From positions 1 to 64,000 of the forward strand of contig JAFDWO010000149.1 in assembly GCA_018268415.1 (NCBI GenBank): 64,000 bases of DNA. Direction: 5' to 3'. A program made the translations under genes and the position numbers. Below the pieces are notes generated by a model that ran no database searches, was not told where the DNA came from, and saw nothing but the letters and a program-made list of their open reading frames with translations. Of this stretch, positions 1,890-37,352 are shown piece by piece; the first letter of the stretch is position 1; each line of letters opens with the position of its first letter. Source of the DNA: Actinomycetota bacterium (GTDB lineage: Bacteria > Actinomycetota > Thermoleophilia > Solirubrobacterales > 70-9).

Positions 1890-1921
1890 GTGGGCAGCTT
1901 AAGGCCGCATCCCGACCTACG

Positions 1922-4239: not shown

Positions 4240-4240
4240 G

Positions 4241-5380: not shown

Positions 5381-5463
5381 CTACTTGTATCTCGACAGCG
5401 GTGGACGAAACTGAAGCGCCGGCAACCTGGATTTGCAGAAGCTCGAGGTACACGAGTCGACGC

Positions 5464-9085: not shown

Positions 9086-9094
9086 GGCGCGACC

Positions 9095-13003: not shown

Positions 13004-13038
13004 AGCGCTCCTCGCGTCGTTTCTTGACGGCGCGAAAT

Positions 13039-14109
13039 CTAGTCGAAGGACCTGGCCCGGGCGCGGTAGCGGTAGGCGGCATCGAGGCCGCGCCGGGCCG
13101 CGGCGCCGGCGAGCCCGCCGGGGCCGATCACCATGATCGTCACCCCCCGCCGTTCCGGCAGCAGCCGGTTGAGGAACTCGTTGGCGGGATCGGCGCAGGT
13201 GTCGAGGAGCCGCTCCGAGCGGTCCGCGAGGAATATCCGCATCGCGTCGATTTCCAGCTGGATGCCCGGCGCGAAGCGGCGGAACCGCTCGTCGTAGGCC
13301 ATCTTGAAGCCGAACAGGGTGTCGCCGGCGCTGACGTTGGATTGCATTGCCAGCGTCTCGCCACCGGCCTCCAGCGAGAGCAGCTGCAGGCGCCCGGCGC
13401 GGGCGAAGCCGGCGCAGGCCGCGCGGAAGAACTCGCTGTCGCCGGCGCTCGCCATCGCCGTCCCCTCGCGCCCCTTCCAGCCCGCTGCCTCCAGGTGCAG
13501 GAACTCCTCGACCGCCGCCGGGTCCCCGGCCCGGTCGCGCACCACGGGTTCCTCGCCGAACGCCTCGGCCAGCTGTTGGCGGCGGCGCGCGAGCTCGCGC
13601 CGGCGCTTCGGCTTGAGTGCCGCCAGGTGCGCATCCGGCTCCGCCGAGCGCGCCAGCGCGGCCCGCTCGGAGACGCGCTCGAAGAGGATCTCGGCGCGCC
13701 CGACCGCGTCGGCGGCGCGCCGCACCGCGGCGGTGATCTCGGCGTCGACCGCTTCCCACAGCAGCAGGAACTGGCGGTCCGGCGCCCCGCCGCGCGCGGC
13801 GACCAGCGTCGCGGCGAAGTCATCGACGTGCCCGGGGGCGACGAGCGGGGTGCCGGCGTAGGAGTAGGGGTGGCGCCAGCTCGTCGTCGCCAGGCGGCGC
13901 ATCGTCCCGACCGGCAGGCAGGCGATCCACTCGCCGCCGTCGGCCAGGATCAGGAGGCGCGGTGGCACCGCGTTCGGAGAGCCCGCCGCGGCGGTGACGA
14001 ACTCCGGCTCGAAGAACGGATTCGGCTCGACCGCGTGGTCCGCCAGCGCCGCCCAGGCGTCGAGGTCGGCCGGCGTCAGCGCCTGGAGGGACCTTTCGAG
14101 GAAGCGCAC
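13039..14109 (-). CDS. GNAT/FemAB-like acyltransferase (CelD/BcsL type)
   Basis: A 356-residue relative of the acyltransferase at 4241-5380. It has the [14 protein letters not shown] segment near the N-terminus, a [15 protein letters not shown] basic helix in the middle, and a C-terminal GNAT lobe ([19 protein letters not shown]). The acyl acceptor is unknown. GTG at 14109 gives the family-like N-terminus; the open frame runs to 14199 but would then overlap the divergent acyl-CoA dehydrogenase start. It lies 35 bases upstream of the CitE-like gene on the same strand. Confidence 0.78.
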
Positions 14110-14185
14110 CCGCGCCGAACCTACCGCACTGGACGCTGCCGTCGATATCCTCAGCACACTGAGAAATCTCAACCAGGCAGGAGAA

Positions 14186-17757: not shown

Positions 17758-17834
17758 GGCGCTGAGTCTAGATCGCCGGCCGGCCCCCCCTCCTTTAGCA
17801 TTGCGCGCCCAAACCAAGAAAAGGCAGGAAAGCT

Positions 17835-21964: not shown

Positions 21965-23128
21965 GTGCTGGTCTGTGGGGGGGCCGTCGTCTTCGGGGTG
22001 GCGGGTTGCGGTGGCGGCTCGTCCGGCGATTCCTGTACCGCCGCCGATGGGTGCTTCGAATCTCGCCAGGGAATCGATGAACCGGTAGACCTCACGGTCG
22101 AATCGCTCCCGCAGCGCCCGGTCCGCCCCGAATCGGCGACGGCGCAGGAAATCGAACGCCACGAAAGGGCCTGCGAAGCCGGCAGTTGCCTGGCCCTCCC
22201 GCCTCTGACCGTGGCGACTTCGATCGCGGGGACGGCAACCGAAGAACGGGGGGCATCGAAGAACGCGGTGGACTCGAGGCGGGCCTGCCCGCTCGCCCCG
22301 ACCGAAACCATCGGCGCGATCCCGATGGAGATGCCCAGTTGCCTTCTGGTCGCCTCGGATACTTCGTCGAACCCCAATGAGGGGCCGTTCTGGGGAGAAC
22401 TGCAGTGCGCCGCGGCCTCGCGCTACGAACAGGTCACCGAAGGTGGGGACCCCAGCGCGACCGCCGCCGGGACGCCTCAGGACAACGCCGACTTTCGGCG
22501 CCTCACCGTCCTCAACGGTGACAACTTCTACGGTGCGCGCTGCGAGCTGGGGGAAAACAACAACCAGGGCGGCCCGACCGTCTTCTATCACCAGGGCGAG
22601 CACCTGGTGACCTACTTCTCGGAGAAACTGCCCGCGAATTTCCCCCTCGACACCAAGAACTGGCAGACCGTGATGCAGATGAAGCAGGCCCAGCCCTCCG
22701 ACGGCGGCGGGGGCGCCCCGATCCTCGAGATGGAAGCCCGCGAAGGCAGGTGGATCGTCGACGACAACTGGCACGAACTCTGGAGCACCCCAGCGCGGAC
22801 GGAAACGTGGACTCGCTTCGCCTGGGACGTCTATTACTCCCAGGATCCGAACCAGGGCTGGCTTCAGGTCTCGGTGGACCTCGACGGCGACGGCGACTTC
22901 AACGACCCCGGCGAGCGCAGTCCTGTCTTCCACGTGGCGACGCTGAAAACGGAGATCGAAGGCCCGAACGGGGCGAGCGACGGCCTCGTCGCCGGACAAC
23001 CGATCCCCTCGCACCTACGGATGGGGATCTACCACGACCCCACGATCTCCTGTCCGGCGCCGACCGGGTGCTCGGTCGACGTCGACAACGTGCAGGTATT
23101 CGCACCGGCGCCGCTCGATGGCGGTTGA
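21965..23128 (+). CDS. Polysaccharide-lyase-like lipoprotein, copy 2
   Basis: At least 387 residues. A hydrophobic segment ending VAGCGGGSS looks like a lipobox, so it is probably lipid-anchored outside. The C-terminal 240 residues repeat the lyase-like domain of copy 1 (FYHQGEHLVTYFSEKLP, FAWDVYYSQDPNQGW, DLDGDGDFND). The N-terminal 120 residues differ from copy 1. GTG 21965 is the only conventional start near the signal, but the frame stays open upstream through RINKQRR, exactly the basic n-region a signal needs. A true start near 21910 on a rare codon is therefore likely. Confidence 0.72.
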   Translation: MLVCGGAVVFGVAGCGGGSSGDSCTAADGCFESRQGIDEPVDLTVESLPQRPVRPESATAQEIERHERACEAGSCLALPPLTVATSIAGTATEERGASKNAVDSRRACPLAPTETIGAIPMEMPSCLLVASDTSSNPNEGPFWGELQCAAASRYEQVTEGGDPSATAAGTPQDNADFRRLTVLNGDNFYGARCELGENNNQGGPTVFYHQGEHLVTYFSEKLPANFPLDTKNWQTVMQMKQAQPSDGGGGAPILEMEAREGRWIVDDNWHELWSTPARTETWTRFAWDVYYSQDPNQGWLQVSVDLDGDGDFNDPGERSPVFHVATLKTEIEGPNGASDGLVAGQPIPSHLRMGIYHDPTISCPAPTGCSVDVDNVQVFAPAPLDGG

Positions 23129-23143: not shown

Positions 23144-24145
23144 TTGTACGGACCCTCTAACATCGCTCCGATCCTCGGTAGCCCCCGAACCGATTCGATT
23201 GCCGTACGCCGACGTGTCGCCGCGGCTCTGTTTGTCGCGATCGCCTTGCTTTCCTGCCTCGGTGCGGTCGCAGGCAACGCCGAAGGCACCATGGCGCGCA
23301 CCCCCACCCACAAGGGCGGCGCCTGCCCGCTCCATGGCTCGGTGCCGCTCAGATCGCTGCCGATGACGATCCCCGGGTGCCACCTGGTCGCCTCCGATAC
23401 AGCCGCCAAGCAGAGTCCGATCCCGTTCTGGGGGCAGGTTTTCTGCCAGACGCAGGCCCAGGCCACCACCTCGGACACCGGCGGCGCCCCGGAATCCACC
23501 GCGACCGGTGCTGCGCAGGGAAACTCGGCGGCCAGGACGGTAACCGTCTTCGACGGCGACAACGACTGGGGTGAGCGCTGCGAGCTCGGCGAGAACGACT
23601 GGCGCGACGGCCCGACGACCTTCTACCACCAGGGTCAGCGACGAGCTACATATTTCTCCTTGCGGTTGCCGCAGAATTTTCCCCTCAACACCAATAACTG
23701 GCAGACCGTGATGCAGATGAAGCAGGCCCAGCCCTCCGACGGCGGGGGCGGCGCCCCGATCCTGGAGATGGAAGCCCGCCAGGGAAAGTGGGTCGTGGTC
23801 GAGAACTGGCACGATCTGTTCAGCTTCCCGGCGCGTAAGAAGACGTGGACCCGCTTCGCGTGGGACGTCTACTACTCCCAGAATCCGGCCAAGGGCTGGC
23901 TTCAGGTGTCCGCCGATCTGAACGGCGACGGCGACTTCAACGACCCCGGCGAGCGCAGCCCTGTCTTCCACGTGGCGACGCTGAAAACGGAGATCGAAGG
24001 TCCGAACGGGGCGAGCGACGGCCTCGCCGCCGGCCAGCCGATCCCCTCGCACCTGCGGATGGGGATCTACCACGACCCCGCGATCTCCTGTCCGGCGCCG
24101 ACCGGTTGCTCGGTCGAACTCGATGATGTGCAGGTGCTCCGATGA
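23144..24145 (+). CDS. Secreted polysaccharide-lyase-like protein, copy 3
   Basis: A 333-residue exported protein, the shortest of the three paralogues. A signal region (VRRRVAAALFVAIALLSCLG, about 22-41) precedes a short spacer, then the lyase-like domain (FYHQGQRRATYFSLRLP, FAWDVYYSQNPAKGW, DLNGDGDFND). TTG 23144 is the only conventional start that includes the signal and gives an unusually long n-region. Long stretches of its 3' half are nearly base-identical to copies 1 and 2, suggesting recent duplication or gene conversion. It is convergent with the phosphodiesterase-like gene, 15 bases away. Confidence 0.72.
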   Translation: MYGPSNIAPILGSPRTDSIAVRRRVAAALFVAIALLSCLGAVAGNAEGTMARTPTHKGGACPLHGSVPLRSLPMTIPGCHLVASDTAAKQSPIPFWGQVFCQTQAQATTSDTGGAPESTATGAAQGNSAARTVTVFDGDNDWGERCELGENDWRDGPTTFYHQGQRRATYFSLRLPQNFPLNTNNWQTVMQMKQAQPSDGGGGAPILEMEARQGKWVVVENWHDLFSFPARKKTWTRFAWDVYYSQNPAKGWLQVSADLNGDGDFNDPGERSPVFHVATLKTEIEGPNGASDGLAAGQPIPSHLRMGIYHDPAISCPAPTGCSVELDDVQVLR

Positions 24146-24160: not shown

Positions 24161-25540
24161 TCAGACGGCCTGGAGCACGGGGCGCCCACTGAGGCCGCTG
24201 GGGGCCTCAACGCCGTAGAGCTCGAGAATCGTCGGGGCGACCGCGACGAGTGGCACCTTCTCGGCCAGCACCTGTGGCCGCACCTGTGGCGACCGGATCC
24301 ACATCATCCCGTCCGGATGATGCTGGCCACTCTTCATCAGGTTCAGCTGGTAGAAGCAGTCGAAGAAGGGGACCGTGCTCCCGTCGGCGAGGGTGATCAC
24401 CGCGTCCTCGTCGAGCTGGCGCCACACCTGGCAGCCGGTCTTCAACTCGCGGCCCTCACGCTTGGAGCGCATCAGCTGCTCGCCGTTGACGTTGATTTGC
24501 TCGAACTTTGCCTGCACCGCTTTTGCGGCCTCCTCGTCGGCGAAGTCGAGGTTGAACTCCTCGGCCATCACCGGCGTCACCTCGGCAGGCTGATCGATTC
24601 CGATCTGGCCGAGGAACTTCTGGAAGTCATTCGGCCGGTAGAGCACCTTGCCGCCAATGTCCTCGTACTTGACGCTCGGCTGTTGGCTGAGCGCGGTGAG
24701 GAGGATCAGGGTGGTGTCGTCGCCGACCATGGCCATCAGTTCGCCGAGTAGGCGATCCATCTGTTCGTATCCGAACAGAATGGCCTCTTGGTAGACGGCC
24801 TGCTCGCCCGGCTCCGGTTTGATCTTGAAGTGCTCCGGCTCCATGTTGCGCCAATAAAGGTGCTGATAGTGGGCGGTGCTGTTGAGGAAGAGGGTGGAGA
24901 AGTCTGGCTTTGCCCGCTTCCAGTGCCAGCGGAAGAGGTCGTACTGGATGCGATCGAGGATCACCGGCCGCTTCCACTTCACGTCGCCTCGTTTCTCCCC
25001 GCCGAGCTGCTTGACGATTGAGGTGATCGTCGAGAGGGAGAGCCCGTGGCGGAGCATGAATTTGAGGAAGTCGACCTGGTCACCGCGCGAGAGCGCCGAG
25101 TCTTCGCGGGTGTGCTCCTGCACGTTCGCGGAGACAAACTTGTAGTAGGGCAGCAGCTCGTAGTCGGGATAGGGCGGGACCCGTAGCACCCACGGGTCCG
25201 GCAGCACCCAGCCGTTGATCGGCGTGCGGTAGTTGATGTTCATCGATCCGCACACCCAGACGCTCTTGCCGTTGTCGGAGAGAACGTCCCAGACGTTGTC
25301 GGCCTCAAGTTTGTGACCGTCGCCGAGGTGGTGGATCTGATGTTCGGCGTAGGACAGGCCGGAGTGCACCGTTACCCATTGGATCCACGGCTCAAGGTCG
25401 GGCGCCGGCGCGTCGGCCTCGGTCACCGCGACCTGTGATTCGGCGTGCAGCCGTTTGAAGTTCGGCAGCTTTCCGGCTGCCATGAACTTCTCGGTCAGGG
25501 TCGGGGAAAGCTCGTTGAACTCAAGGGCGATCGCGCGCAT
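24161..25540 (-). CDS. Alkaline-phosphatase-superfamily / type I phosphodiesterase-like protein
   Basis: A 459-residue protein with the nucleotide pyrophosphatase/phosphodiesterase-like layout: N-terminal ALEFNELSPTLTEKF, PNFKRLHAES, a central region with DFSTLFLNSTAHYQHLYW, and GDDTTLILLTALSQQP where canonical members have a metal-binding DHG segment. That replacement means activity is uncertain. No signal peptide is seen. It sits at the edge of the exopolysaccharide cluster, divergent from the GT4 gene at 25592. Confidence 0.7.
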   Translation of the reverse strand: MRAIALEFNELSPTLTEKFMAAGKLPNFKRLHAESQVAVTEADAPAPDLEPWIQWVTVHSGLSYAEHQIHHLGDGHKLEADNVWDVLSDNGKSVWVCGSMNINYRTPINGWVLPDPWVLRVPPYPDYELLPYYKFVSANVQEHTREDSALSRGDQVDFLKFMLRHGLSLSTITSIVKQLGGEKRGDVKWKRPVILDRIQYDLFRWHWKRAKPDFSTLFLNSTAHYQHLYWRNMEPEHFKIKPEPGEQAVYQEAILFGYEQMDRLLGELMAMVGDDTTLILLTALSQQPSVKYEDIGGKVLYRPNDFQKFLGQIGIDQPAEVTPVMAEEFNLDFADEEAAKAVQAKFEQINVNGEQLMRSKREGRELKTGCQVWRQLDEDAVITLADGSTVPFFDCFYQLNLMKSGQHHPDGMMWIRSPQVRPQVLAEKVPLVAVAPTILELYGVEAPSGLSGRPVLQAV

Positions 25541-25591: not shown

Positions 25592-26812
25592 TTGCGGATT
25601 CTTATTCTCAGCCAATACTTCACTCCGGAGGCGCTGGCACCCCCGGCACGCCTGCATCCGATTGCTGCGACCCTCGCCGAACAGGGGCACGAGGTCGAGG
25701 TGATCTGCGAGGTCCCGAACTACCCGGAGGGGGTCGTGCGCGACGGTTACCGCGGCCGCCCGGTCATCCGCAAGGAGATCGACGGCTTCAAGGTCTCCTA
25801 CGTCTGGGTCAAGACCTCGCCGGTTCGCTCGACCAAGGCCCGACTTCTTCTCTACGGCACCTATGCCACCTCTTCGGTGCTGTGTGGCGCCTTTAGTCGC
25901 CGCCCCGACGTCGTCTTCTGCTCGTCACCGCCGCTACCGGTGGCCGCCGCCGCGGCGGCCGTCGCCAAGCGTCACCGGGTGCCGTGGGTCTTCGACGTCC
26001 GGGATCCCTGGCCCGAGGCCGCCGTGGCGCTCGGCGAGTTGACCAACCCGCGGATCATCCGCTGGGCCGAGCAGCTCGAGAGGAGCCTTTACGCAAGCGC
26101 GTCCGCGATCGTGACCGTCACCGAGCCGTTCCGTGCCGACATTGCCGCCAAGGTGGATGACCCGGGGAAGATCTCGATCATCCCCAATGGCACGACGCGC
26201 CGCTGGATGGCGGCGGGGGAAGCCGGCGTCGATCGTGCGGAGGTCGAGTTGCCTGCCGACCGCTTCGTCTGGACCTATGCGGGCAACCTCGGCATTGCCC
26301 AGGGGCTGGGGGCGGCGATCGAGGCGCAGGCCGAGCTGGGCGAGGGTTTCCAACTGCAACTGGTCGGCACCGGGCCGGTCCAGGGCAAGCTGGAAGAGGA
26401 GGCGGCGAAGTTGCCCGCCGGAAGCGTCGTCTTCCGAGGTCTGGTCCCGCCCGAGGAGGCGGCCCTTTACTTGCGCGCCTCCGACGCCAATCTGGTCGCC
26501 CTCGGTGCCCAGCCGGCGTTGGCCAAGTTCGTCCCCTCGAAGCTCTTCGACTTCTGCGCGGTCGGCCGCCCCGTCGTACTCGCTGCGGCGGGGGAGCCGC
26601 AACGTCTGGCGGCGACCGCCGACGCGGCGATCCCGGTGCCGCCGGAGGATCGCGATGCTTTGGTCGCGGCGCTGCGCAAGCTGCAGGCCGACCCGGTCTT
26701 GTGCGCGAGGCTCAGCGAGAACGGGCGGCGGTTCGCCGCCGACTACCTGCGCGAGGATCAGGTCAAGCGTCTCGAGACGATTCTCGTCGAGGCCGTCGGG
26801 CGCCGCCCTTAG
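25592..26812 (+). CDS. Glycosyltransferase family 4 (WbuB-like)
   Basis: A 406-residue GT-B enzyme of the WbuB/FnlC type: ILILSQYFTPEALAPPAR, EVICEVPNYPEG, WVFDVRDPWPEAAVALGEL and, near the C-terminus, KFVPSKLFDFCAVGRPV, which replaces the classical E-x7-E as in other WbuB-type enzymes. Such enzymes often add amino sugars in O-antigen or capsule units. The start is TTG at 25592, 52 bases from the divergent phosphodiesterase start. Its last four bases overlap the convergent flippase gene. Confidence 0.88.
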   Translation: MRILILSQYFTPEALAPPARLHPIAATLAEQGHEVEVICEVPNYPEGVVRDGYRGRPVIRKEIDGFKVSYVWVKTSPVRSTKARLLLYGTYATSSVLCGAFSRRPDVVFCSSPPLPVAAAAAAVAKRHRVPWVFDVRDPWPEAAVALGELTNPRIIRWAEQLERSLYASASAIVTVTEPFRADIAAKVDDPGKISIIPNGTTRRWMAAGEAGVDRAEVELPADRFVWTYAGNLGIAQGLGAAIEAQAELGEGFQLQLVGTGPVQGKLEEEAAKLPAGSVVFRGLVPPEEAALYLRASDANLVALGAQPALAKFVPSKLFDFCAVGRPVVLAAAGEPQRLAATADAAIPVPPEDRDALVAALRKLQADPVLCARLSENGRRFAADYLREDQVKRLETILVEAVGRRP

Positions 26813-28380
26813 GCGGTTGCGGCCTCTCGACGCCGCCGTAGGCGGGCGAGCAGGCGGCCGACCAGCGAGAACAGATCATTCGCGGTCTCCGGCGCCAGGA
26901 GGCGGATACCGCCGAGATAGATTCCGGCGGCGACGATGCTCTCTCCGGCGATCAGGGCGAGCCCGCCCAGCGTCCCGAGGCTGGTGGCGTCGATCAAGAC
27001 AAACTGGATCGGCACCAGGACCCCCGCCATCACCAGCCCCGCGACGGCGCTCGGCACGATCGAGCCGAGCATCTCCCACATCGAGCTATCGAGCAGGTCG
27101 GCCGTCTTCCAGAGTGCGTAGCCGCCCGCCGCGAGGGCGCCAGCGGAGGTCCCGATCGCGACCCCGATCAACCCCATCCAGAGGAGGGCGACCGCGACCG
27201 CGGCGCCGACCACCAGCATCACCGCCTGTAGGTTGACCAGGACCTGCGGTTTGCCGTCCGCCTTGACCACCTCGGTCGCGAACGCGACGATCGCGCCGCC
27301 TACCGGGGTGCCGGCCAACGCCATCGTCGCGTAGCCGGCGTCCTTCCAGACCTCGCCGAACACGATCACCGCGAGGGGCACGCCGAGGGGGACGAGGATA
27401 AGTCCGAGTGGGAAGGCGACCGCGCACATCAGTCGCAGCGAGCGCAGGCAAGCTTGACGGAAGCGCTCGCGGTCGTCGGTGATCCGCGACAGCGCCGGGA
27501 AGAGGACGTATGAGGCGCTCTGGATCACGACCAGGAGTGAGGTCGAGGACATCCGTTCGGCGTAGCGGTACTGGCCGAGTGGGTTGGAGCCGACGAAGCG
27601 GCCGAGGAGGATGACCGGGATCTCTTCGTTCAACCGCAGGACCATGATCGAGGCGAGGACGTGCCTGCCATAGCCAACCAGCTCCCGGTACATCCCGATC
27701 GAGGCCTTGCGGAAGTCCGGACGCCAGTTGACCAGCGCCCAGGAAAGGATCGCGTCGATCAATGCCGCGGCGTAGTAGCCGATCACCATCGACCAGGCAC
27801 CGAGGCCGTTGCTCGCCGCGATGATCGCGCTGGTTCCCAGCGCGATCACGCCTACCGGCTGGATCACCATCCGCCGCAGGAAGGAGAAACGGCGCTGCAG
27901 CAAGGCCTCGGGGACGACGATCACCGAGCGGATCAGGAGGACACCGGCCATCGCCGCGCCGATCTCGCCGACCCGGTCGTCATGGAAGAGGAGGCCCAGT
28001 AGGGGCGAGGCGGCGAGGGCGGCGAGGCTGAAGGCGATGCCGCCGGCGATGGTGGCGAGGACCGCCGTGCTCGCCGCCTCCTCGATCCGGTCTTTGCGAT
28101 GGATCAGGGCGGCCATCATCCCGGACTCGGTGAAGAGGGCGCCGAAGGTGGCGAGCAGCGAGCCGGCGGTGAAGACGCCGAACTCGTGTGGGCTGATCAG
28201 TCGCGCGAGGACAAGGTAGAAGCCGAGCGTCAGAACCTGGGCGCCGACGTAGCCGACCCCGGCCATGCCAACGCCGCGGACGACGGTGTCGCCCAGCCCC
28301 TCGCCGCCGAGATCGGGGTCGGCGAAAGAGGCGGCCTCGACGTCCTCGTCGGATTGGGGCGGAACCGGTTGCTCACTCAC
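26809..28380 (-). CDS. Polysaccharide flippase (Wzx/WzxC type)
   Basis: A 523-residue protein with a charged N-terminal tail and about 14 membrane helices. GFYLVLARLISPHEFGVFT and ALLQRRFSFLRRM are typical of the WzxC branch of the MOP exporter superfamily, which flips lipid-linked repeat units. Length is normal. It is followed upstream on the same strand by the polysaccharide deacetylase and the C5-epimerase-like gene. Confidence 0.9.
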   Translation of the reverse strand: MSEQPVPPQSDEDVEAASFADPDLGGEGLGDTVVRGVGMAGVGYVGAQVLTLGFYLVLARLISPHEFGVFTAGSLLATFGALFTESGMMAALIHRKDRIEEAASTAVLATIAGGIAFSLAALAASPLLGLLFHDDRVGEIGAAMAGVLLIRSVIVVPEALLQRRFSFLRRMVIQPVGVIALGTSAIIAASNGLGAWSMVIGYYAAALIDAILSWALVNWRPDFRKASIGMYRELVGYGRHVLASIMVLRLNEEIPVILLGRFVGSNPLGQYRYAERMSSTSLLVVIQSASYVLFPALSRITDDRERFRQACLRSLRLMCAVAFPLGLILVPLGVPLAVIVFGEVWKDAGYATMALAGTPVGGAIVAFATEVVKADGKPQVLVNLQAVMLVVGAAVAVALLWMGLIGVAIGTSAGALAAGGYALWKTADLLDSSMWEMLGSIVPSAVAGLVMAGVLVPIQFVLIDATSLGTLGGLALIAGESIVAAGIYLGGIRLLAPETANDLFSLVGRLLARLRRRREAATA

Positions 28381-28403: not shown

Positions 28404-29183
28404 TCAGCGCGCGAACCTCCGCCTCAACGAGCGTAGTCCGCCGGCGACCACCGGCCAGGCCGAGGTGGCGCGGGCTCGCCGCACCCTAGGCGAGACCTTG
28501 AGGCGGAAGGAGCGCATGTCGTCGTGGACGTAGATGCCGATGCGCGGCCAGGCCAGCGGCTTGGGCGTTGGTGCGCCGGCGGGAAGGGTTGCCGCCGCCG
28601 CGTATCCGGCGGCGCCGGCGGCGGCGGCAACCGCGTCGCTGTGGTCGCCATACGGGTAGGCGATCGTCGTGCACGAGCCGAGCTCCGCTTCGCATGTGGC
28701 TTTCGATTCGGCCAGCTCGGCCCGCATCCGCTCGGACCTGATCTGGCTCAGTTTCGGGTGGCTGCGGGTGTGCGAACCGATCTCCCAGCCCGCATCGCGC
28801 AAGCGTCTTACCTCGTCCCAACCCATGGGGATCAACTCGCGCTGATGCTCGCCGCCGAGCCAGTGTTCGATCCCCGGCCAGGCCATCGGTCGCTCGCTGC
28901 CGATCCAGTCGGTGGGAACGAAGAGCGTCCCTGGTAGGCCGAGCTCGGCGAGGATCGGCTGCGCCAACTCGATCACCGATCGATAGCCGTCGTCGAAGGT
29001 GATTGCGACGCGACGGCCAGGGCCGCCGGCCACCAGCTCGCCGAAGGTGACGCCGCGGTACCCGTGGTCGACCAGGTACTTGAGATGGGCCCGCAGGCGC
29101 TGAGGGGAGATCGCAAGGTCGGCGGGCCAGGTCGGGCTCACCGCGTGATAACAGAGGACGAGCGAGTCGTCGCGACGGCTCAT
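28404..29183 (-). CDS. Polysaccharide deacetylase (NodB/CE4 family)
   Basis: A 259-residue CE4 esterase. Motif 1 VAITFDDGYRSV gives the catalytic Asp pair, SHTRSHPKLS gives the metal-binding His pair, and YPYGDHSD is the third motif. It would remove N- or O-acetyl groups, for example from GlcNAc residues. No signal peptide is visible, so it may act on lipid-linked intermediates inside the cell or be exported otherwise. ATG 29183 overlaps the stop of the upstream epimerase-like gene (ATGA), so the two are translationally coupled. Confidence 0.9.
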   Translation of the reverse strand: MSRRDDSLVLCYHAVSPTWPADLAISPQRLRAHLKYLVDHGYRGVTFGELVAGGPGRRVAITFDDGYRSVIELAQPILAELGLPGTLFVPTDWIGSERPMAWPGIEHWLGGEHQRELIPMGWDEVRRLRDAGWEIGSHTRSHPKLSQIRSERMRAELAESKATCEAELGSCTTIAYPYGDHSDAVAAAAGAAGYAAAATLPAGAPTPKPLAWPRIGIYVHDDMRSFRLKVSPRVRRARATSAWPVVAGGLRSLRRRFAR

Positions 29184-30202
29184 GTTGCGTGGCTCCACGG
29201 CAGACGGTGGGCAAGAACGGGGTTGCGTGGGACGGCGAGCCGGAAGGCGATGGCGGCGGCGATCGCCCGGCTGCGGCAGAGGCGCGACCCGCGGTAGCGC
29301 TCGAAGGCGTCGACGGCGACAGCCAGCTGCGGGCGGTGTGAGAGCTGATCGAGGACTCGCAGCTGCTTGACATGAAGCAGGTGGTAGGCGGGGCTGGCGA
29401 CATGCCTCAGGGGGTTCGGATAGAGGTCGTAGAGGGACCAGTAGCCGCAGTCGTAGCGGTGCATCAACTGCGCCAAGCCATCGGTCGTCGCCTCGAAGAG
29501 CTTCAGCGCCTCGGTGTCGCCGAGGCCGAAACCGACGTCGTAGAGACCCCACATCGCGAAGATCGCGCCGTTCAGGACCGCCGAGGGCTTCGCCGTCGGG
29601 TACTCCTCCAGCACCGGTTGACCGTCGATTTCTGCCAGCGTGCCGCCGTCCTCGGTCGACATCAGAAGGGTCTTGACCGTCCGCCGCGCGGCGTCGGCGT
29701 AGGCCTCCTCACCGGTTTGCAGGTGGACGCGGGTAAGCAGGCTGGCGCACTCGCCCTGGCCCATCGCCGAGATCCAAGGTGGATCGAGCGGGAAGGTGTG
29801 AGGCATCGACTCAAGGTGCATCCAGGCCCCATCGTGGGGTCCGTCCTGCTCAAGGTTGGCGACGATGTGATCGGCACAGGCCTTCGCCCCCTGCAGCCAC
29901 TCGTCGCCCTCGCCGTCGAGGTAGCGCTCGATCGCCCCGAGGCCCCACTGGGCGTTGGTGACAGCAAACTGCTTCACCCGGGCTTCCAGCCAGAACGGAG
30001 GCCATGCCGGCGAGTCGTTCTTCATCCGGAAGTCGATGTAGTAGCCGCGCGGAGTGGTATCACGCTCCCAGTGGCGCCCGATCGGCGGATCGAAGGAGGC
30101 CTCGCTGCCGAAGGTGTTGGGGGATCCGGAATCGAGCCGGAGCCTGCGCCGCATCATGCGGAGCCTGTCGGCGGTGTTCGAGCTGGCCATCGTCTCGGTC
30201 AT
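29180..30202 (-). CDS. D-glucuronyl C5-epimerase-like protein
   Basis: A 340-residue protein matching the C-terminal catalytic domain of heparan/heparosan glucuronyl C5-epimerases. Recognisable in order: SAMGQGECASLLTRVH, EEYPTAKPSAVLNGAIFAMW followed by GLYD, and GYWSLYDLYPNP...HLLHVKQL, which keep the Tyr residues used in catalysis by animal GLCE. Such enzymes turn glucuronate into iduronate in a polymer. Residues 1-45 are polar, with no signal peptide, so action on a lipid-linked intermediate is likely. It is coupled by ATGA overlap to a polysaccharide deacetylase, the same pair of activities used in heparan maturation. Confidence 0.85.
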   Translation of the reverse strand: MTETMASSNTADRLRMMRRRLRLDSGSPNTFGSEASFDPPIGRHWERDTTPRGYYIDFRMKNDSPAWPPFWLEARVKQFAVTNAQWGLGAIERYLDGEGDEWLQGAKACADHIVANLEQDGPHDGAWMHLESMPHTFPLDPPWISAMGQGECASLLTRVHLQTGEEAYADAARRTVKTLLMSTEDGGTLAEIDGQPVLEEYPTAKPSAVLNGAIFAMWGLYDVGFGLGDTEALKLFEATTDGLAQLMHRYDCGYWSLYDLYPNPLRHVASPAYHLLHVKQLRVLDQLSHRPQLAVAVDAFERYRGSRLCRSRAIAAAIAFRLAVPRNPVLAHRLPWSHAT

Positions 30203-30228: not shown

Positions 30229-31422
30229 ATGGACCGCGCCGAGCGTCGAATCCGCGTCCTCACCATGGTTGACGGGCTCGGAACGGCCGGGGGAGGCGAG
30301 GGTATCGCCCGTCAGATCGCTCTGCACCTCGACCGCGACCGGTTCGAGGTCGTCTTCTGCGTGACTCGGTGGGGGGCGAAAGAGGCCGCCGATGTGGACG
30401 GCCAAGTCGAGTTGCGCGAGGCGGGAGTCGCGCTCTTCCCGCTGTCGCGTGACGGCCGCTTTGACCTGGCGCCCTGGCGGAGCCTGGTCGGACGGGCGCG
30501 GCGGAGCGAAATCGACGTCGTGCATACCCACAAGATCGGCTCGAACGTGTGGGGGGCTTTACTTTCGCCGCTGATGGGCCGGCCGGTCTTCGTCGCCCAT
30601 GAGCACACCTGGTCCTACGACGGCAATCCGACCCGCGTCTTCCTCGACCGTGAGCTGATTGCTCGCCGGGCCGATGCTTTCGTCGCCGTCTCGCGTGAAG
30701 ACCAGCGGCGGATGATCGAGATCGAGGGCGTGCCACCGGCCAAGACGCGCTTCATCGCCAACGGTATCCCGCCGTTCCCGCCGGCCACACCGGGTCGCGA
30801 TATCCGCGCCGAGCTCGCGATCGCCGCGGACGCGCCGCTGGTCGGCGTTGTCGCGACTCTGCGCCCGCAGAAGGCGCTCGAGGTGATGGTCCGCGCGGCG
30901 GCCCAGGTACATGAGGAAGTGCCGGAGGCAGTCTTCCTGCTGATCGGCGGCGAGGCGGAAGTGGTGGGCGAGGCGGATCGCCTGGCCGCGCTCGCCGGGG
31001 AGCTCGGCCTCGGCGATTCGTTTCGTGTGCTCGGTCAACGCGATGACGTCCCCGACCTGGTCGCGGCCCTCGACATCGGTGCGCTCTCATCCGACTTCGA
31101 GGGCAGCCCGCTCTCGGTGATGGAGTACATGGAGGCGGGGAAGCCGGTCGTCGCCACCAACGTCGGCGGCCTCCCTGACCTGGTGGTCGAGGGTGTCAAC
31201 GGCTTTCTCGTCGAGCGCCAGGATCCCGCCGCCCTCGCGGCGGCTCTGGTCGCGCTCCTGCGTGACCCTGAGCTGGCCCGGCGGATGGGCGAGGCCGGGC
31301 GCACCCGCCGGCGCGAGGAGTTCTCGATCGAGGCCACCGCCCGCCGCTGCGGCGAACTCTACGAAGAGCTTATGGTGGCGAAGGGCTCGACAAGACAGGA
31401 TCGCGATCGAAACGCGCCTTGA
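30229..31422 (+). CDS. Glycosyltransferase family 4
   Basis: A 397-residue GT-B enzyme: TMVDGLGTAGGGEGIARQIA, DVVHTHKIGSNVWGAL, FVAHEHTWSYDG, and the donor-site DFEGSPLSVMEYMEAGKPVV (E-x7-E). ATG 30229 gives the family N-terminus; an open frame from 30004 runs over the divergent epimerase-like gene and is not used. It shares a 26-base divergent gap with that gene. Confidence 0.9.
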   Translation: MDRAERRIRVLTMVDGLGTAGGGEGIARQIALHLDRDRFEVVFCVTRWGAKEAADVDGQVELREAGVALFPLSRDGRFDLAPWRSLVGRARRSEIDVVHTHKIGSNVWGALLSPLMGRPVFVAHEHTWSYDGNPTRVFLDRELIARRADAFVAVSREDQRRMIEIEGVPPAKTRFIANGIPPFPPATPGRDIRAELAIAADAPLVGVVATLRPQKALEVMVRAAAQVHEEVPEAVFLLIGGEAEVVGEADRLAALAGELGLGDSFRVLGQRDDVPDLVAALDIGALSSDFEGSPLSVMEYMEAGKPVVATNVGGLPDLVVEGVNGFLVERQDPAALAAALVALLRDPELARRMGEAGRTRRREEFSIEATARRCGELYEELMVAKGSTRQDRDRNAP

Positions 31423-31444: not shown

Positions 31445-32593
31445 CTAACGCCCTTCGATGAAGTTGGCGACGCGGTCGACCTCGACCTGGAAGGTGGAGG
31501 CGCGCACCAGCGCATTGCCGGCGCCGATCCGCTCGGTCCGGAGCTTGGGATCGGCGCCCAGTCGGGCGACGGCATCGGCCGCAGCCGGCGCGTCGCCGGC
31601 GGGGATCAGGCTGACGGCGCTGCCGACCGCGGCGCGGATACCGCCGACGTCGGTGGCGACCACGGGCAAGGCGGCGGCGAAGGCCTCGTAGAGGATCTGG
31701 GGGAGGCCCTCGGTCCAGGAGACGTGCAGGAGGACGTGGCTTTCGCGGTAGGCCTCCGCGAGACCACCGGCGTGGGGGACGTAGCCACGAAGGTCGGCAC
31801 GATCGGCGACGCCGAGCTCTTCGAGGCGCTCGCGCAGCGCCGCTTCCAGGCCCCCCTCGCCGCAGACGACGAGTCGCCAGCGCGGATCACGCTCGACCAG
31901 CAGACGCAGCGTGTCGGCAAGCAACAGCGGGTTCTTCTCGACCTCGAGCCGGCCGACACTGAGCGCGACCAGCTCATCGCCCTCGTATGACACTTGGCGC
32001 GCCGCCGGGTCGACCACGTCGTCCTCGTCGACCAGCGACACGCTGATCTCCAGCAGGCGGCGCGAGTGCCGATAGCTCTCGGCAACCGCGGGGCCCACGG
32101 CGATCACCGAGCAGAAGCGGCCGAAGAAGCGAAAGGCGGCGTCCATCAGGTCGGCGATCCGGTGCAGTGAGCGCCGCCCGGGGTGGCGGCTGCGGACGTA
32201 GGCGGGCGTGTCCTGGCGGACGCCGAGGACGACCTTCTTGCGCCGCGCCCAGGCCATGAGGATGAACGGCACGGCGAACGGGTGGGGCCCGAAGATCGCC
32301 ACGCAGTCCACCTCGTCGATCCCTCGCCAGAAGGCGCGGAGGGTGCCTGATGCGCCACGCAGGAACCCGCGGGGGTCGGTGAGCTTCGTGTAGTAGGGGA
32401 ACGGGACGAACCCGACCGCCTCACCGAGCGGATAGCGGGCCGAATCGGAGCCGCCCGGGGCGAGCCGGCCGAGGATCGTCACCTTCTCCAGGCGCTCTCC
32501 GAGGCGATCGAGGAAGAGAGCGAAGGCGCGCTCGGCGTAGATCCGATCGTCTACGCGGTGGTACGCGTAGTCCGTGTAGGCGGCGAGCCGCAT
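31445..32593 (-). CDS. Glycosyltransferase family 4
   Basis: A 382-residue GT-B enzyme with SVGRLEVEKNPLLLADTL opening the donor domain and the E-x7-E motif in WTEGLPQILYEAFAAALP followed by VVATDVGG. The N-terminal part (MRLAAYTDYAYHRVDDRIYA) is less typical. It lies one base after the Wzy-like gene's stop on the same strand, so it is probably in the same operon. Confidence 0.88.
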   Translation of the reverse strand: MRLAAYTDYAYHRVDDRIYAERAFALFLDRLGERLEKVTILGRLAPGGSDSARYPLGEAVGFVPFPYYTKLTDPRGFLRGASGTLRAFWRGIDEVDCVAIFGPHPFAVPFILMAWARRKKVVLGVRQDTPAYVRSRHPGRRSLHRIADLMDAAFRFFGRFCSVIAVGPAVAESYRHSRRLLEISVSLVDEDDVVDPAARQVSYEGDELVALSVGRLEVEKNPLLLADTLRLLVERDPRWRLVVCGEGGLEAALRERLEELGVADRADLRGYVPHAGGLAEAYRESHVLLHVSWTEGLPQILYEAFAAALPVVATDVGGIRAAVGSAVSLIPAGDAPAAADAVARLGADPKLRTERIGAGNALVRASTFQVEVDRVANFIEGR

Positions 32594-32594
32594 G

Positions 32595-33986
32595 TCAGGT
32601 CGCGAGCTCGTTCCGGCGTTCTTTGGTGGCCTTCATCTGGCGCCGGGCGATGCCAAGCATGGCTGGGCCGAGTCCGAGCAGAAGCCAGAGGGGCTTGCTG
32701 TACTCCTCCGAGATGAAGATGTCGGCGACCAGAGTGCCGATCAGGCCGACGGCCAGGCCGCGCGATAGTGCCTCGCAGCCACGGTCTCCGAGGGCGGCAA
32801 AATAACGCGCCGCCCGTAGCGCCGAGCGGACGCAGAAGAGGACGATGACGATGAACATGCCGAGGCCGATCAGGCCCAATTCGGCTGCCATCCCGAGGTA
32901 GGTGTTGTGGACCACTTTCGGGGTGGCGATGATCAGATCGGTGCGACCGAGCGCCCCGGGCTGGCTCAGGAGGTAGTGGCGGGCCGAAGTCTGGAAGTTG
33001 TTGGCACCGATTCCGATCAGCGGTTTCGATTCGACCACCCGCTCGGCGACCGCCCAGATGGTCGTCCTGCCCTCTTTCAGCTGGGTCTCACCTTCGCTGG
33101 TCGAGGCGATGCGTTCACGCGCTGCCGGGGGTGCCAGAACGGCGAAGTAGAAGAAGCTGCCGGAGGCGACGAGTAGCGCTGCCGCGAACGCGACGGGACG
33201 CCAGCGGCCACCGATGATCATCCCCGCGACCAGGGAGACCGCGAGGGCTACGAGACCGCCCCGAGAAACCGTGAGGAAGATGCCGAAGACGCATAAGACC
33301 ACGCATGAGAGGGCAGCGAGCCGCAAGCCCGGCTTGTCGCGAACGTTGACCGTGAAGGCGGCCGAGAGCGCGACCCCTGCAACCAGGATTGAGGCGAGTT
33401 CGTTCGGATCGAGGGCGGTGCCATTCAGTCGCGCTTCTTCGCCGGCGGGATGGGCGAGTCCGTAGACGCAGGCGGCAAGGGCGCCGAGGACGAGCCCCGC
33501 GATCACCGTCATCGCCCCACGGCGGTTGCGGACGGCGGTGTAGACGATTGGGATCAGCATCACGTTGGGGATGTAGCGGGTGAGCGCGGTCCCGACCTCC
33601 GAAGGGCTCTCCGCCCAGGTCATGCCGAGGAGAATCCAGGAGAGGAATAGGCCGAGAAGTAATGAGATCGTCGGGTGGTCCTCGAAGAAGGTGCTCTCCT
33701 TGTCGCGGGTCGAAATCGCCGCGATCCATCCCGCGATCACCATCCCGCCGGCGAGCTTGCCGACGCTTGCCGATGATCCGAGGTCGAGCACCTCGAGGAA
33801 GCTGACGAAGGCGAAAAGGGCGACGCCTGCGGTGAAATTGACGAAGATCACCAGCGCGAACATGAGCCCGACCGCGCCGACCAGTGCCAGTTTCGGTTCG
33901 ACTCCGGCGAGCAGCCCGATCACACAGCAGACGCCGAGGACCGCTGCCGTTCCCAGGTTCGACGGCGATCGCAGCCGCGCCGTCAA
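32595..33986 (-). CDS. O-antigen ligase/polymerase-like membrane protein (Wzy/WaaL)
   Basis: A 463-residue protein with about twelve membrane helices and a large periplasmic-side loop. The loop has RTTIWAVAERVVESKPLIGI, GANNF and VVHNTYLGMAAELGLIGL, the Wzy_C signature seen in WaaL and Wzy proteins. I placed the start at TTG 33986 with AAGGG nine bases upstream, just beyond the upstream gene's TAG. The longer frame to 34106 would overlap that gene by 119 bases. It would polymerise repeat units outside the membrane, with the Wzz/kinase gene upstream controlling chain length. Confidence 0.85.
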   Translation of the reverse strand: MTARLRSPSNLGTAAVLGVCCVIGLLAGVEPKLALVGAVGLMFALVIFVNFTAGVALFAFVSFLEVLDLGSSASVGKLAGGMVIAGWIAAISTRDKESTFFEDHPTISLLLGLFLSWILLGMTWAESPSEVGTALTRYIPNVMLIPIVYTAVRNRRGAMTVIAGLVLGALAACVYGLAHPAGEEARLNGTALDPNELASILVAGVALSAAFTVNVRDKPGLRLAALSCVVLCVFGIFLTVSRGGLVALAVSLVAGMIIGGRWRPVAFAAALLVASGSFFYFAVLAPPAARERIASTSEGETQLKEGRTTIWAVAERVVESKPLIGIGANNFQTSARHYLLSQPGALGRTDLIIATPKVVHNTYLGMAAELGLIGLGMFIVIVLFCVRSALRAARYFAALGDRGCEALSRGLAVGLIGTLVADIFISEEYSKPLWLLLGLGPAMLGIARRQMKATKERRNELAT

Positions 33987-33987
33987 G

Positions 33988-35619
33988 CTAACCCTTGGTG
34001 GTGATCGACTCGTCCGCCGGGCGGCGGGAGCCGGCGGGAAGGCGCTTGCCGCCTTTGCCCTGGCGGGGACCCGGCGAGCCGCCCGGACGGGCGTAATGGT
34101 CGTCACCGTCGGCGGGCCGGTTGACTCCGATCAGGACGAACCCGGAGGGGACGATGCCATTCTCGTCGAGGAGTTCGGCAAGTTCGCTCAGCTTGTCGAG
34201 CCTCGTCCGACCAAGGCGGGTGGTGATCAGGACATCGTCAGCCGTGGTGGCCAGCGGCAAGCCGTCGGCGACCTCGTTCAGAGGGGGAGAGTCGACGATG
34301 ACGTAGTCGGCCTTCTCCCGCGCCTCCTTGATCAGCGCTTCGGCGCGCGGGGTGGAGAAGAGGTCGGTGACCCAGTCGGCGCGGAAGTCGGGCTCGGCGA
34401 GCAGCAGCTTCAGGTTCGGGCCGTAATCTTTGGTGCCCACAAGGCACTCACCGAGGCTGGCTCGGTCGATCAGGGCGGTGACCACGCCCTCGGATGGGTC
34501 CAGGCCGAAGAATCGACCCAGCACCGGCCGACGCAGGTCGGCCTCGATCAGGATGACTCGACGGCCGAGCAGCGCCAGTGAGGCAGCGAGGTTGACCGCG
34601 GTCGTCGTCTTGCCCTCGGTCGGCGAGGAGCCGGTGACGAGGATCAGGCGCCCCTCCTCCTCGGTCCCCGAGCGGCGCGGGCCGGAGAGGGTGGCTCGCA
34701 AGGTCCTGTAGGCCTCGTCGACGAATGGGGATCCCTGACCGGGCGCCAGTGGCCGGTCGGTGCGCGAGCGGGCGCGCGGGATCCGGGCGAGGATCGGCAG
34801 GCGGTAGGTGCGACGTAGCTGCGACTCGCGACGGAGACGCGGGTCGAGCACTTGGAGGGCAAAGGCGCCGCCGATGCCGATGATCAGGCCGGCGATGATC
34901 CCGGCGACGATCGAGAGTGTTTTTTTCGGCGAGGACGGCGCGCTCGGTTCGGCGGCCTTGGTTTGAACCCGCATCGTCGGGTCCGGGCCGGCGCCCAGCG
35001 CCTTCAGCTCGGCGATCTGCGACTGGACCGTCGTGGCGCCGGCTTCGACCACTTCGGCTTCACCGTTGCTCGCGGCGACCGCTTCAAGCCGCGGTAGTCG
35101 TTCGGCGATCTCTTCGTGCATCGTCGCGGTGCGCTCTTCGACCGCGGCCGCGGCAAAGGCATTGGCGATTTCCTGGGCTTCCTTCGGGGAGCTCGCCTTG
35201 GCGGTGACGGCGACGATGTTGCTGTTGGCGACAGGTTCCGCGGACACCGCTTCGAGCAGTTCTTCCGGCGACTTGCCGCTGTTCAGCTTGCTCGCCGTGC
35301 GGCGGGCGACGTCGATGTTGGCGATCAGCTGGGAGGCGGTCTGGACGTCGCGAGTAGGATCGCTCGATTCACGCAGCAGGCCGAGACTGGTCAGGACCGG
35401 GTCGCTGCTGTTGACCGGCGTGATCAGCATGTCGGCCGTGGCGTCGTAGGACTTCGTCGCCGTGAGGACGTAGAGGATGGCGATCAGGGTCGTGACCAGG
35501 ACCGCGGCGACGATCAGCCGCCAGCGCTCCCGCACCGTCTCGACATAGCGTTTGAGTCCCTGCTGCTCTTCGGCGGGACGCAGCCAATCGACTGAGCTTT
35601 TGTAGGGGGCAGGGGTCAA
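33988..35619 (-). CDS. Polysaccharide co-polymerase with BY-kinase domain (Wzz/Wzc)
   Basis: A 543-residue protein. The N-terminal Wzz domain has membrane helices at about 35-55 and 235-255 with a long extracytoplasmic loop between. The cytoplasmic ATPase/tyrosine-kinase domain (about 290-500) has Walker A GSSPTEGKTTTAVNLA, Walker A' VILIEADLRRP and Walker B YVIVDSPPLNEVADG. The usual C-terminal Tyr cluster is nearly absent: one Tyr (DDHYARPGG) lies in a basic Gly/Pro tail. It regulates chain length and export. The start is TTG at 35619 with no strong Shine-Dalgarno site. Confidence 0.9.
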   Translation of the reverse strand: MTPAPYKSSVDWLRPAEEQQGLKRYVETVRERWRLIVAAVLVTTLIAILYVLTATKSYDATADMLITPVNSSDPVLTSLGLLRESSDPTRDVQTASQLIANIDVARRTASKLNSGKSPEELLEAVSAEPVANSNIVAVTAKASSPKEAQEIANAFAAAAVEERTATMHEEIAERLPRLEAVAASNGEAEVVEAGATTVQSQIAELKALGAGPDPTMRVQTKAAEPSAPSSPKKTLSIVAGIIAGLIIGIGGAFALQVLDPRLRRESQLRRTYRLPILARIPRARSRTDRPLAPGQGSPFVDEAYRTLRATLSGPRRSGTEEEGRLILVTGSSPTEGKTTTAVNLAASLALLGRRVILIEADLRRPVLGRFFGLDPSEGVVTALIDRASLGECLVGTKDYGPNLKLLLAEPDFRADWVTDLFSTPRAEALIKEAREKADYVIVDSPPLNEVADGLPLATTADDVLITTRLGRTRLDKLSELAELLDENGIVPSGFVLIGVNRPADGDDHYARPGGSPGPRQGKGGKRLPAGSRRPADESITTKG

Positions 35620-35864: not shown

Positions 35865-37352
35865 GTGGCCTCAGATCTAGAAACCCCTACGTCCATGGGC
35901 CGGCTGGCGCGTCCGCGCGATCTCCCGCCCGTCCACCACCTCCAGTCGGCGATGATGGCCCAGCGCCGTCTGCGACTCGTCGTCTTCTGCGTGCTGCCCG
36001 CGCTCGCCGCCGGCGTGCTGGCAGGCCTGCGCTTCGGCGACCTCGGCTTCGGGGCGATCTCTGCCGTTGCGGTCTTCGCTGCCTGCCGGCTGGGGGAGCG
36101 CGAACGCATCCCGATGCACCTGATGCCGCTCTCGACCTTCGTCGTCCGCGCGCTCGCCCCGGTGCTGGGGCTCGGTCTGGCGCTGTTGCTGAACGTCGTC
36201 TATGGCGAGGGTCGTGAAGCGATCGGGATGCTCGTGCCGCTGGTCGGCGCCTGGCTCGTCCTCGCGCTCGGATCCTGGGCGATGCCGCGCTATCTCGCCT
36301 CCCACCAGGTTCGGGTCGCGATGGTCAGCTCTCCCGGCCTCGCCGTGGCGATGGCGTACGAGCTGAAAAGCGCCGGCATCCGCTCCTACGAGGTCGTCGG
36401 CTGGTTGGCCGACGGGCCGCCCGCTGCCGAACCATCGTCGGGGCCGCGCTGGCTGGGATCCCTCGATGACGTCCGCGGGGTGGTCGAGCGCCATGAGATC
36501 GAGCTGCTCGTCTACTCGAGTGGGGTTCCTGGTCATCCCGGCGAGCCGCAGATGGGGCGACTGGAGCTGTTCGAGCGTGTTGCCGCCTCCTGCCTCGACC
36601 TGCCCGTCCGTCTGCTGGAGGCGAGCCGCCTGTACGAGGAGCTGCTCGGCCATGTGCCGCTCGGCCAATCGACCTCGGCCTGGTTCCAGTACCTGATGCA
36701 TCCTCGGTATCGGCCCGGCTCCTCGTTCTCCAAGCGCGCCTTCGATGTCGTCGTCGGATCGGGGATGCTGGTGATCCTCTCTCCGGCGCTCGCCTGCTTC
36801 GCCGTCGCCGTGAAGCTGAGCGACCGCGGGCCGGTCTTCTATCGCCAGCGTCGCGTCGGGGAGGGAGGACGCGAGTTCGAGATGATCAAGCTGCGCTCGA
36901 TGCGGGTCGCCGCCGAGACGGACGGGGCGCAGTGGGCGCGGAGCGACGACGACCGCGTGACGTCCGTCGGCGCCCTGATGCGGCGCCTGCATATCGACGA
37001 GATGCCGCAGCTCTGGAACGTCATCCGCGGTCAGATGACGATCGTCGGGCCGCGGCCGGAGCGTCGGCAGATCGTCTCCTCACTGGAGCGCCAGTTGCCC
37101 TACTACGATCGCCGCCACCTGGTGAAGCCGGGCCTCGCCGGCTGGGCGCAGGCCTGCTGTGGATACGCCGGGTCAGAGCAGGGAACGAGCTGGAAGCTCT
37201 GCCACGACCTCTACTACCTGAAACATCGCTCGGTCTACTTCGACATGCTGGTCCTGTTGGAGAACGTCCGCGTCTCGGTCTCCGGCGTCCAGTTCGGCCT
37301 CGATGCCCCCCAGGAGCAGTTCATCCTCGGGCACAGCGACCAGCTGCAGTAG
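35865..37352 (+). CDS. Polyprenyl-phosphate sugar-1-phosphate transferase (WbaP/ExoY type)
   Basis: A 495-residue initiating enzyme that loads the first sugar phosphate onto undecaprenyl phosphate. The N-terminal half has four membrane helices and a Rossmann-like domain. The C-terminal half (about 295-495) is the bacterial sugar transferase domain: KRAFDVVVGSGMLVILSPAL, GPVFYRQRRVGEGGREFEMI, KLRSM, DEMPQLWNVIRGQMTIVGP then RPE. The start is GTG at 35865. The gene closes the cluster on the right and converges on the gene at 37368, with a short GCCCC/GGGGC stem between them. Confidence 0.92.
   Translation: MASDLETPTSMGRLARPRDLPPVHHLQSAMMAQRRLRLVVFCVLPALAAGVLAGLRFGDLGFGAISAVAVFAACRLGERERIPMHLMPLSTFVVRALAPVLGLGLALLLNVVYGEGREAIGMLVPLVGAWLVLALGSWAMPRYLASHQVRVAMVSSPGLAVAMAYELKSAGIRSYEVVGWLADGPPAAEPSSGPRWLGSLDDVRGVVERHEIELLVYSSGVPGHPGEPQMGRLELFERVAASCLDLPVRLLEASRLYEELLGHVPLGQSTSAWFQYLMHPRYRPGSSFSKRAFDVVVGSGMLVILSPALACFAVAVKLSDRGPVFYRQRRVGEGGREFEMIKLRSMRVAAETDGAQWARSDDDRVTSVGALMRRLHIDEMPQLWNVIRGQMTIVGPRPERRQIVSSLERQLPYYDRRHLVKPGLAGWAQACCGYAGSEQGTSWKLCHDLYYLKHRSVYFDMLVLLENVRVSVSGVQFGLDAPQEQFILGHSDQLQ

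Follow-up and report, generated by a model that had tools for sequence, protein, structure and literature searches.

The epimerase gene and its catalytic residues

The stretch of DNA analysed here, called the window below, comprises the first 64,000 nucleotides of contig JAFDWO010000149.1 from an Actinomycetota bacterium of the order Solirubrobacterales (assembly GCA_018268415.1; genome G000). On its reverse strand, at 29180..30202, lies a gene for a predicted cytosolic C5-epimerase of the type of the animal glucuronyl C5-epimerase GLCE, followed at 28404..29183 by a gene for a CE4-type polysaccharide (N-)deacetylase. Both sit in an exopolysaccharide (EPS) locus, and together they are best labelled a GLCE-family epimerase/deacetylase module for an exopolysaccharide that probably contains iduronate. 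The epimerase open reading frame (ORF) is a genuine gene, encodes 340 amino acids between an ATG start and a TGA stop and has a high third-position G+C content (0.86). Its start codon is uncertain, with further in-frame ATGs at residues 5, 16 and 17, and its ATG is separated by 26 bases from that of a divergent GT4-type glycosyltransferase gene, which begins at 30229.

PF06662 (C5-epim_C) was the sole Pfam family matched by the protein at E 0.001, with 134.7 bits at a cut-off of 23.3, and none of the NCBIfam models matched it. The PF06662 match is unique in G000 (160 contigs, 4.74 Mb), and 2 of the 14 control genomes contained one. A phmmer search of PDB sequences with the epimerase retrieved human and zebrafish GLCE (5.7e-19 to 2e-18), as did a profile of 15 family sequences, the window protein and its relatives (3e-48 to 4.3e-45). 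Both epimerase motifs that a preliminary description of this DNA had quoted, EEYPTAKPSAVLNG and GYWSLYDLYPNP, are found in the protein, and its claim of a C5-epimerase homologue is borne out by the PF06662 match and by all of the catalytic residues tested.

These residues are E499, Y500, N510, Y560 and Y578 in human GLCE (PMC13308652, section 6). In an alignment of a human GLCE fragment with 42 PF06662 proteins, their equivalents in the window epimerase are E200, Y201, N211, Y258 and Y273; the catalytic tyrosines, on which the prediction had been set beforehand to stand or fall, are thus present in the sequence. Forty stretches of DNA were fetched that hold 41 of the 73 PF06662 matches outside the window, the strongest ones among them. 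We call type A those epimerases that score at least 284 bits with phmmer (12 loci including the window) and type B an intermediate group of five proteins; L095 (genome G303, 235 bits) stands outside the 12-locus count. Of the 42 aligned proteins, 23 retain the complete set of five residues: the window epimerase, every one of the other 11 type A proteins, all five of type B, L032, L095 and 4 of 21 distant proteins. An alignment of 15 of the 17 window, type A and type B proteins (L039 and L048 were left out) contains 41 invariant columns.

Elsewhere in the family, the catalytic glutamate equivalent to E499 is missing from 17 of the 21 distant proteins, which are aligned members of a large group from the same order (L050-L071). 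Two further PF06662 proteins, L096 (3529..4500) and L102 (9031..10911), have a valine at the position of Tyr500 and possibly a different chemistry; a sulfotransferase gene lies near the former.

The family profile covers residues 294-578 of the 585 of zebrafish GLCE, and in this comparison the N-terminal beta-hairpin and beta-sandwich domains of GLCE are absent from the 340-residue window epimerase. Judged by its sequence, the protein is a new member of PF06662 whose catalytic residues are intact; since it appears to lack the beta domains and an export signal, it does not count as GLCE proper. The family name is not new, since all four plasmid records with a homologue are annotated as 'D-glucuronyl C5-epimerase family protein'.

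Coupling to a CE4 deacetylase

The deacetylase at 28404..29183 matches PF01522 with 92.9 bits and contains the motifs TFDDG, SHTRSH and AYPYG, of which TFDDG and HxxxH presumably have their usual CE4 meanings. The motifs TFDD(G/A), SHxxxH and AYPYG were intact in all eight CE4 proteins checked. As the preliminary description had stated, the epimerase and deacetylase genes overlap by exactly four bases, the stop/start sequence ATGA. The same exact overlap of an epimerase stop with a CE4 start is found in 7 of the 12 type A loci, as ATGA in six and as GTGA in one (L040); a chance ORF artefact was considered and rejected on the ground that the overlap is common to these seven loci. In an eighth type A locus (L043, genome G019) the epimerase is in frame with the CE4 domain, giving a single ORF of 612 amino acids. 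The junction of this fusion comprises 120 bases without a stop in any frame, and the only start codon in the CE4 frame is a GTG within the conserved core motif. The epimerase-deacetylase pairing described earlier for the window is therefore conserved in relatives and, in one of them, fused.

A CE4 gene also lies nearby in four of the five type B loci. At L095 none was seen in the 324 bases between the epimerase and the end of the contig. A mirror-tree comparison gave r 0.968, a figure raised by the relatedness of the species and of little evidential value. What appears to be new, from the gene arrangement, is a conserved, once fused and probably cytosolic epimerase/N-deacetylase module within a Wzx/Wzy locus; in a search mainly of openly accessible papers, we found no description of a bacterial epimerase-CE4 pair or fusion.

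Of the 50 genomes in the window's family, 12 encode an epimerase of type A or B, as do 5 of 51 other genomes searched; these five (G063, G076, G080, G086 and G090) all belong to a single family within the window's order. A homologue with 48-49% identity (L002, VAWV01000055.1) lies within L041, which is G076:C93 and comes from that order. A draw of 396 genomes across the phylum yielded 16 with any match at 1e-10 or better. Three of them belong to the window's family, the window genome included; a fourth is G303, from another family of the class, whose protein is 47% identical, and the other 12 had at most 41% identity. This distribution is compatible with transfer or loss.

The surrounding locus and its relatives

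The genes around the module constitute an exopolysaccharide locus of the Wzx/Wzy type, in which Pfam places together a Wzx flippase (26809..28380, -; PF13440/PF01943), a Wzy-like polymerase/O-antigen ligase (32595..34106, -; PF04932), a Wzz/BY-kinase co-polymerase (33988..35619, -; PF02706 and PF13614) and an initiating polyprenyl-phosphate sugar-1-phosphate transferase (35865..37352, +; PF02397). Three core glycosyltransferases, all GT4-type by Pfam, complete it: GTa (25592..26812, +), GTb (30229..31422, +), which is the divergent neighbour of the epimerase, and GTc (31445..32593, -), which is found in 10 of the 11 type A relatives. Nine of these 11 have the full set of BY-kinase, Wzy, GTb and GTc, the GTb match of L049 being weak (52 bits). 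A 459-residue protein encoded at 24161..25540 (-), between the PF14099 genes described below and a GT4 gene, gave no Pfam or NCBIfam match at E 0.001 and nothing better than E 0.11 in a PDB search. A second polysaccharide-type region, at 780..14199, holds two GT4 genes, a WecB-like epimerase gene, two GNAT genes (Acetyltransf_6), two GT2 genes and a weak Wzy-like membrane protein.

Three tandem genes on the forward strand (19474..20961, 21965..23128 and 23144..24145) encode proteins of the 'polysaccharide lyase' family PF14099, the first and third with strongly hydrophobic N-termini (2.84 and 2.58). Their C-terminal halves are near-identical and their N-terminal parts differ, a pattern that suggests recent duplication or gene conversion. 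We take RxE, QxH and YxKxGxY, the motifs of PL7-type lyases, to be the relevant set, and presumably QxH can be read in the same way in PF14099; on that assumption the set is incomplete in the three window copies, which lack the histidine of QxH. QMK replaces QxH in all seven window-type copies (three in the window, three in L035 and one in L049), so that these proteins may not be active lyases; QxH is retained in all eight copies of type B, whereas the L103 protein shows QFK and that of L106 has nothing comparable. A PDB sequence search with one window and one type B protein gave no match, and an AlphaFold model of the trio reached a pLDDT of 28.

Among the 50 genomes of the family, 12 have the epimerase, 13 have PF14099 (counted at E 0.001; the single match of G017 falls short of the cut-off) and seven have both (Fisher P 0.007). 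In all seven the two lie on the same contig, 1.7 to 12.6 kb apart; in G022 the nearest PF14099 match is below the family cut-off and the nearest above it is 12.6 kb from the epimerase. The 11-kb distance used in the proximity calculation was picked after the data had been seen. PF14099 also occurs in 6 of the 38 family genomes that have no epimerase; five of these six neighbourhoods were fetched, and EPS-type genes were present in L103 and L106 and not found by our queries in L104, L105 and L107. PF14099 is therefore only an associated gene.

Four genomes from the same genus, G005 to G008, carry a type B epimerase together with PF14099, a WecG-family gene, Wzx, Wzy and CE4, as well as a gene family that is represented in L038 by a heparinase II/III-like member. 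Flanking genes common to the window and these loci suggest that they occupy the same chromosomal place. L038, L044, L045 and L047, all from the same genus, apparently hold at this place a different locus that has a divergent epimerase, a WecG-family gene and genes of the PF14099 and heparinase II/III-like kinds, which looks like serotype-like swapping that retains the epimerase, CE4 and PF14099.

No sulfotransferase was found in the window locus or elsewhere in the window; G000 has two, its PF13469 and PF00685 matches lying only on contigs 39 and 3. The sulfotransferase on contig 39 (L079, 9241..10233), outside the locus, matches the PDB entry 3rnl (6.6e-22) and then HS3ST1 (2e-12). Among 18 hand-chosen genomes (type B G080 was left out), five have PF13469 matches at most 10 kb from the epimerase. 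The probability of such proximity, which counts matches and not genes, is 7e-6 in G012 and G030 and 0.007 in G023, and is not significant in G033 (0.13) and G311 (0.09). In L033, L036 and L037 a sulfotransferase is the next gene after Wzx, on the opposite strand in L037. PDB comparisons of sulfotransferases near epimerase loci cover the two L036 proteins: the one after Wzx matches 3rnl at 2.7e-42, followed by heparan 3-O-sulfotransferases and the N-deacetylase/N-sulfotransferase NDST (3.7e-5 to 8.9e-3), and the second matches 3rnl at 1.9e-12, followed by heparan sulfate 3-O-sulfotransferases from 1e-10. Neither the type A genomes G063, G076 and G090 nor G303 has a PF13469 match anywhere, and PF13469 sulfation is therefore not a general part of the system. 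Rows of strong PF13469 matches were observed at G012:C4:156577-168129, G023:C108 and G030:C193, on contigs other than that of the epimerase; these three genomes also have sulfotransferases beside the epimerase.

Proposed mechanism, alternatives and known systems

We propose that a minimal cytosolic hexuronyl C5-epimerase of the GLCE family would form one functional unit with the CE4 N-deacetylase encoded in the overlapping frame, both enzymes most likely acting on the undecaprenyl-diphosphate-linked repeat unit prior to its flipping by Wzx. The CE4 enzyme would remove the acetyl group from an N-acetylhexosamine and leave a free amine, while the epimerase, using the same tyrosine-based chemistry as GLCE, would convert the neighbouring D-glucuronate to L-iduronate by inversion at C5. 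An exopolysaccharide with iduronate and free amines would result, which in some relatives is probably sulfated. We hold with moderate confidence that such a cytosolic unit modifies a lipid-linked repeat and gives an exopolysaccharide of this kind; the cytosolic location, the lipid-linked action, the order of the steps, the glucuronic acid (GlcA) substrate and the polymer itself are what we infer from gene content and alignments.

Within the first 60 residues, the best 19-residue mean hydropathy is at most 1.22 in all of the eight epimerases and eight CE4 proteins compared, and it is -0.41 in the window epimerase. Since polymerisation in Wzx/Wzy systems takes place outside the cytosol, a cytosolic epimerase could reach only the lipid-linked repeat unit, and the lack of both the beta domains and a visible export signal means that GLCE-like action after polymerisation is probably not to be expected. 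UDP-GlcA is probably available, because a TuaD-like UDP-glucose dehydrogenase is encoded on contig 50 of G000 (447.9 bits with the best model, below its strict cut-off of 700) and close copies with 68 to 100% identity occur in 15 of the 16 epimerase genomes searched; the copy is split in two pieces in G012 and G027, and G023 has only a 35% fragment.

Several observations weigh against this reading. The AlphaFold model of the epimerase, with one relative in the alignment, is mostly helical and poor (pLDDT 51, pTM 0.60). A fold search with it gave no PDB match at E 0.001 or better; GLCE chains ranked second, third and sixth (E 0.025-0.055), outranked by a designed helical repeat. Four of the 12 type A loci (L034, L048, L049 and L039) are without an adjacent CE4 gene, so the pair is not obligatory; L049 has a CE4 gene within the locus that is not adjacent to the epimerase, and a CE4 query found no match in L034, L048 and L039, the last of which lies near a contig end. 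The fusion is known from one draft genome, and may yet be a sequencing frameshift, because the GTG of L043 lies inside the CE4 core motif. The absence of an N-terminal signal or anchor from the epimerase was judged by simple hydropathy, the sole localisation test, and in the CE4 protein of L037 one internal 19-residue stretch reaches 1.67. GT4 is a retaining family from which alpha-linkages are expected, and GLCE acts on beta-GlcA; with all core transferases GT4-type, the GlcA would be alpha-linked and the product hence beta-L-iduronate, unlike that of heparan. Finally, the nearest nucleotide-sugar dehydrogenase, encoded in the window at 16510..17817 (-), resembles models of UDP-ManNAc dehydrogenase more than those of UDP-glucose dehydrogenase.

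Among equivalog models, those for UDP-ManNAc dehydrogenases come nearest to that enzyme (276 bits, below the cut-offs). Together with the WecB-like gene at 3121..4239 (314.5 bits, above the cut-off), it makes N-acetylmannosaminuronic acid (ManNAcA) a live alternative, and the uronic acid may be one other than GlcA. The epimerase substrate would then be another D-hexuronate, for example ManNAcA, converted to N-acetylgulosaminuronic acid (L-GulNAcA). The loci of G005-G008 point the same way: all four have this dehydrogenase at a distance of about 3 kb from the epimerase, together with a WecG-family gene, and that of G005 (L038) also has a WecB-like gene. However, the neighbourhoods fetched for the other 11 type A epimerases yielded no dehydrogenase of the 16510..17817 type, the UDP-GlcA-type enzyme occurs in 15 of 16 genomes and, to our knowledge, the characterised relatives, of which PMC13308652 describes the bacterial one, use GlcA; we consider this substrate unlikely. 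It is very improbable that the PF06662 protein is not an epimerase here and serves in polymer binding or another reaction, as may hold for the distant group. The breadth of the family, with the missing glutamates of 17 of 21 distant proteins and the valines of L096 and L102, would allow it, but the five residues and the 41 invariant columns of the window, type A and type B proteins argue for retained function.

The preliminary description had envisaged a heparan-like or other iduronate polymer. The second part of this proposal is plausible given the TuaD-like UDP-GlcA supply, whereas heparan as such is not supported. A true heparan-type backbone of alternating GlcA and GlcNAc, N-deacetylated and epimerised as in animals, would explain the coupling of an epimerase to an N-deacetylase, and in vitro heparosan is a substrate of some CE4 deacetylases (PMC13353177, section 2.1). 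The sulfotransferases beside the locus in some relatives, both L036 proteins matching heparan sulfate 3-O-sulfotransferases and one also NDST, the HS3ST1 match of the G000 enzyme outside the locus, and the heparinase II/III-like family with PF14099 in G005-G008 are in keeping with it as well. Yet heparosan-specific deacetylases cluster closer to CE18 than to CE4 (PMC13353177, section 2.1), the window enzyme lacks the GLCE beta domains and any visible export signal, no sulfotransferase is encoded in the window locus, and PF13469 is without any match in four epimerase genomes. The three core transferases of this Wzx/Wzy locus were moreover assigned to GT4 by Pfam, no search with a heparosan synthase profile having been made, and the two GT2-type genes of the window (9098..12026) are at least 17 kb away. 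Heparan is thus one possible product among several, and in our judgement an improbable one; what the locus suggests is a bacterial polymer with some of the chemistry of heparan that is not clearly heparan itself. A bolder and distinctly tentative extension of the proposed mechanism is an independent bacterial 'mini heparan-sulfate' chemistry, in which the C5-epimerase, the N-deacetylase and the sulfotransferases of sister genomes would all act in the cytosol on each lipid-linked repeat. If true, every repeat would be uniformly modified before polymerisation, in contrast to the patchy later modification in animals.

A compact epimerase that is coupled to an N-deacetylase, and of which a natural fusion probably exists, would offer a testable way towards an iduronate polymer native to bacteria and possibly a soluble tool for heparin-like synthesis, and bears on whether heparan-type chemistry had a single origin or was assembled repeatedly from the same enzyme families. 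That few bacterial C5-epimerases of this kind have been characterised, as the preliminary description had remarked, agrees with section 3 of PMC13308652, which names one of GLCE type. This characterised enzyme, RED65_08024 of Bermanella marisrubri, is like the window protein a bacterial GLCE homologue (PMC4432689, PMC12834895, PMC13308652); it differs in having been assayed on desulfated heparan and heparin, its native polymer is said to be unknown (PMC4432689), and the passages describing it in these papers do not mention coupling to CE4. Actinomycete Wzx/Wzy-type loci with putative sulfotransferases have been reported (PMC13390465), sulfated bacterial polysaccharides having earlier been reported from cyanobacteria only, according to the same source. 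The wps-1 cluster of Actinoplanes missouriensis resembles the window as an actinobacterial locus of this type and has two putative sulfotransferases of its own, one of them heparan-type (PMC13390465); unlike for the window, the word 'epimerase' is absent from the main text of that paper.

Animal GLCE (PDB 6HZZ, 4PW2) shares with the window protein the catalytic domain, the five catalytic residues and the blocks WxSAMxQG, EEYPT..VLNG and YDL..YH..H..QL, but the window protein, with its 340 residues, lacks the beta-hairpin and beta-sandwich domains as well as a hydrophobic N-terminus, and its gene lies in a Wzx/Wzy locus with CE4. Agl32 of Halobacterium salinarum is a single helical domain, as the window enzyme is predicted to be, and, in line with the role proposed here, acts on a lipid-linked oligosaccharide before membrane transfer (PMC13308652, sections 3 and 6); its own authors see none of the GLCE catalytic residues at the equivalent positions, whereas the window protein has all five by alignment. 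NDST1, finally, combines N-deacetylation with another modification in one polypeptide, offering an analogy to the epimerase-CE4 fusion in which the partner domain is a sulfotransferase instead of an epimerase (PMC12834895).

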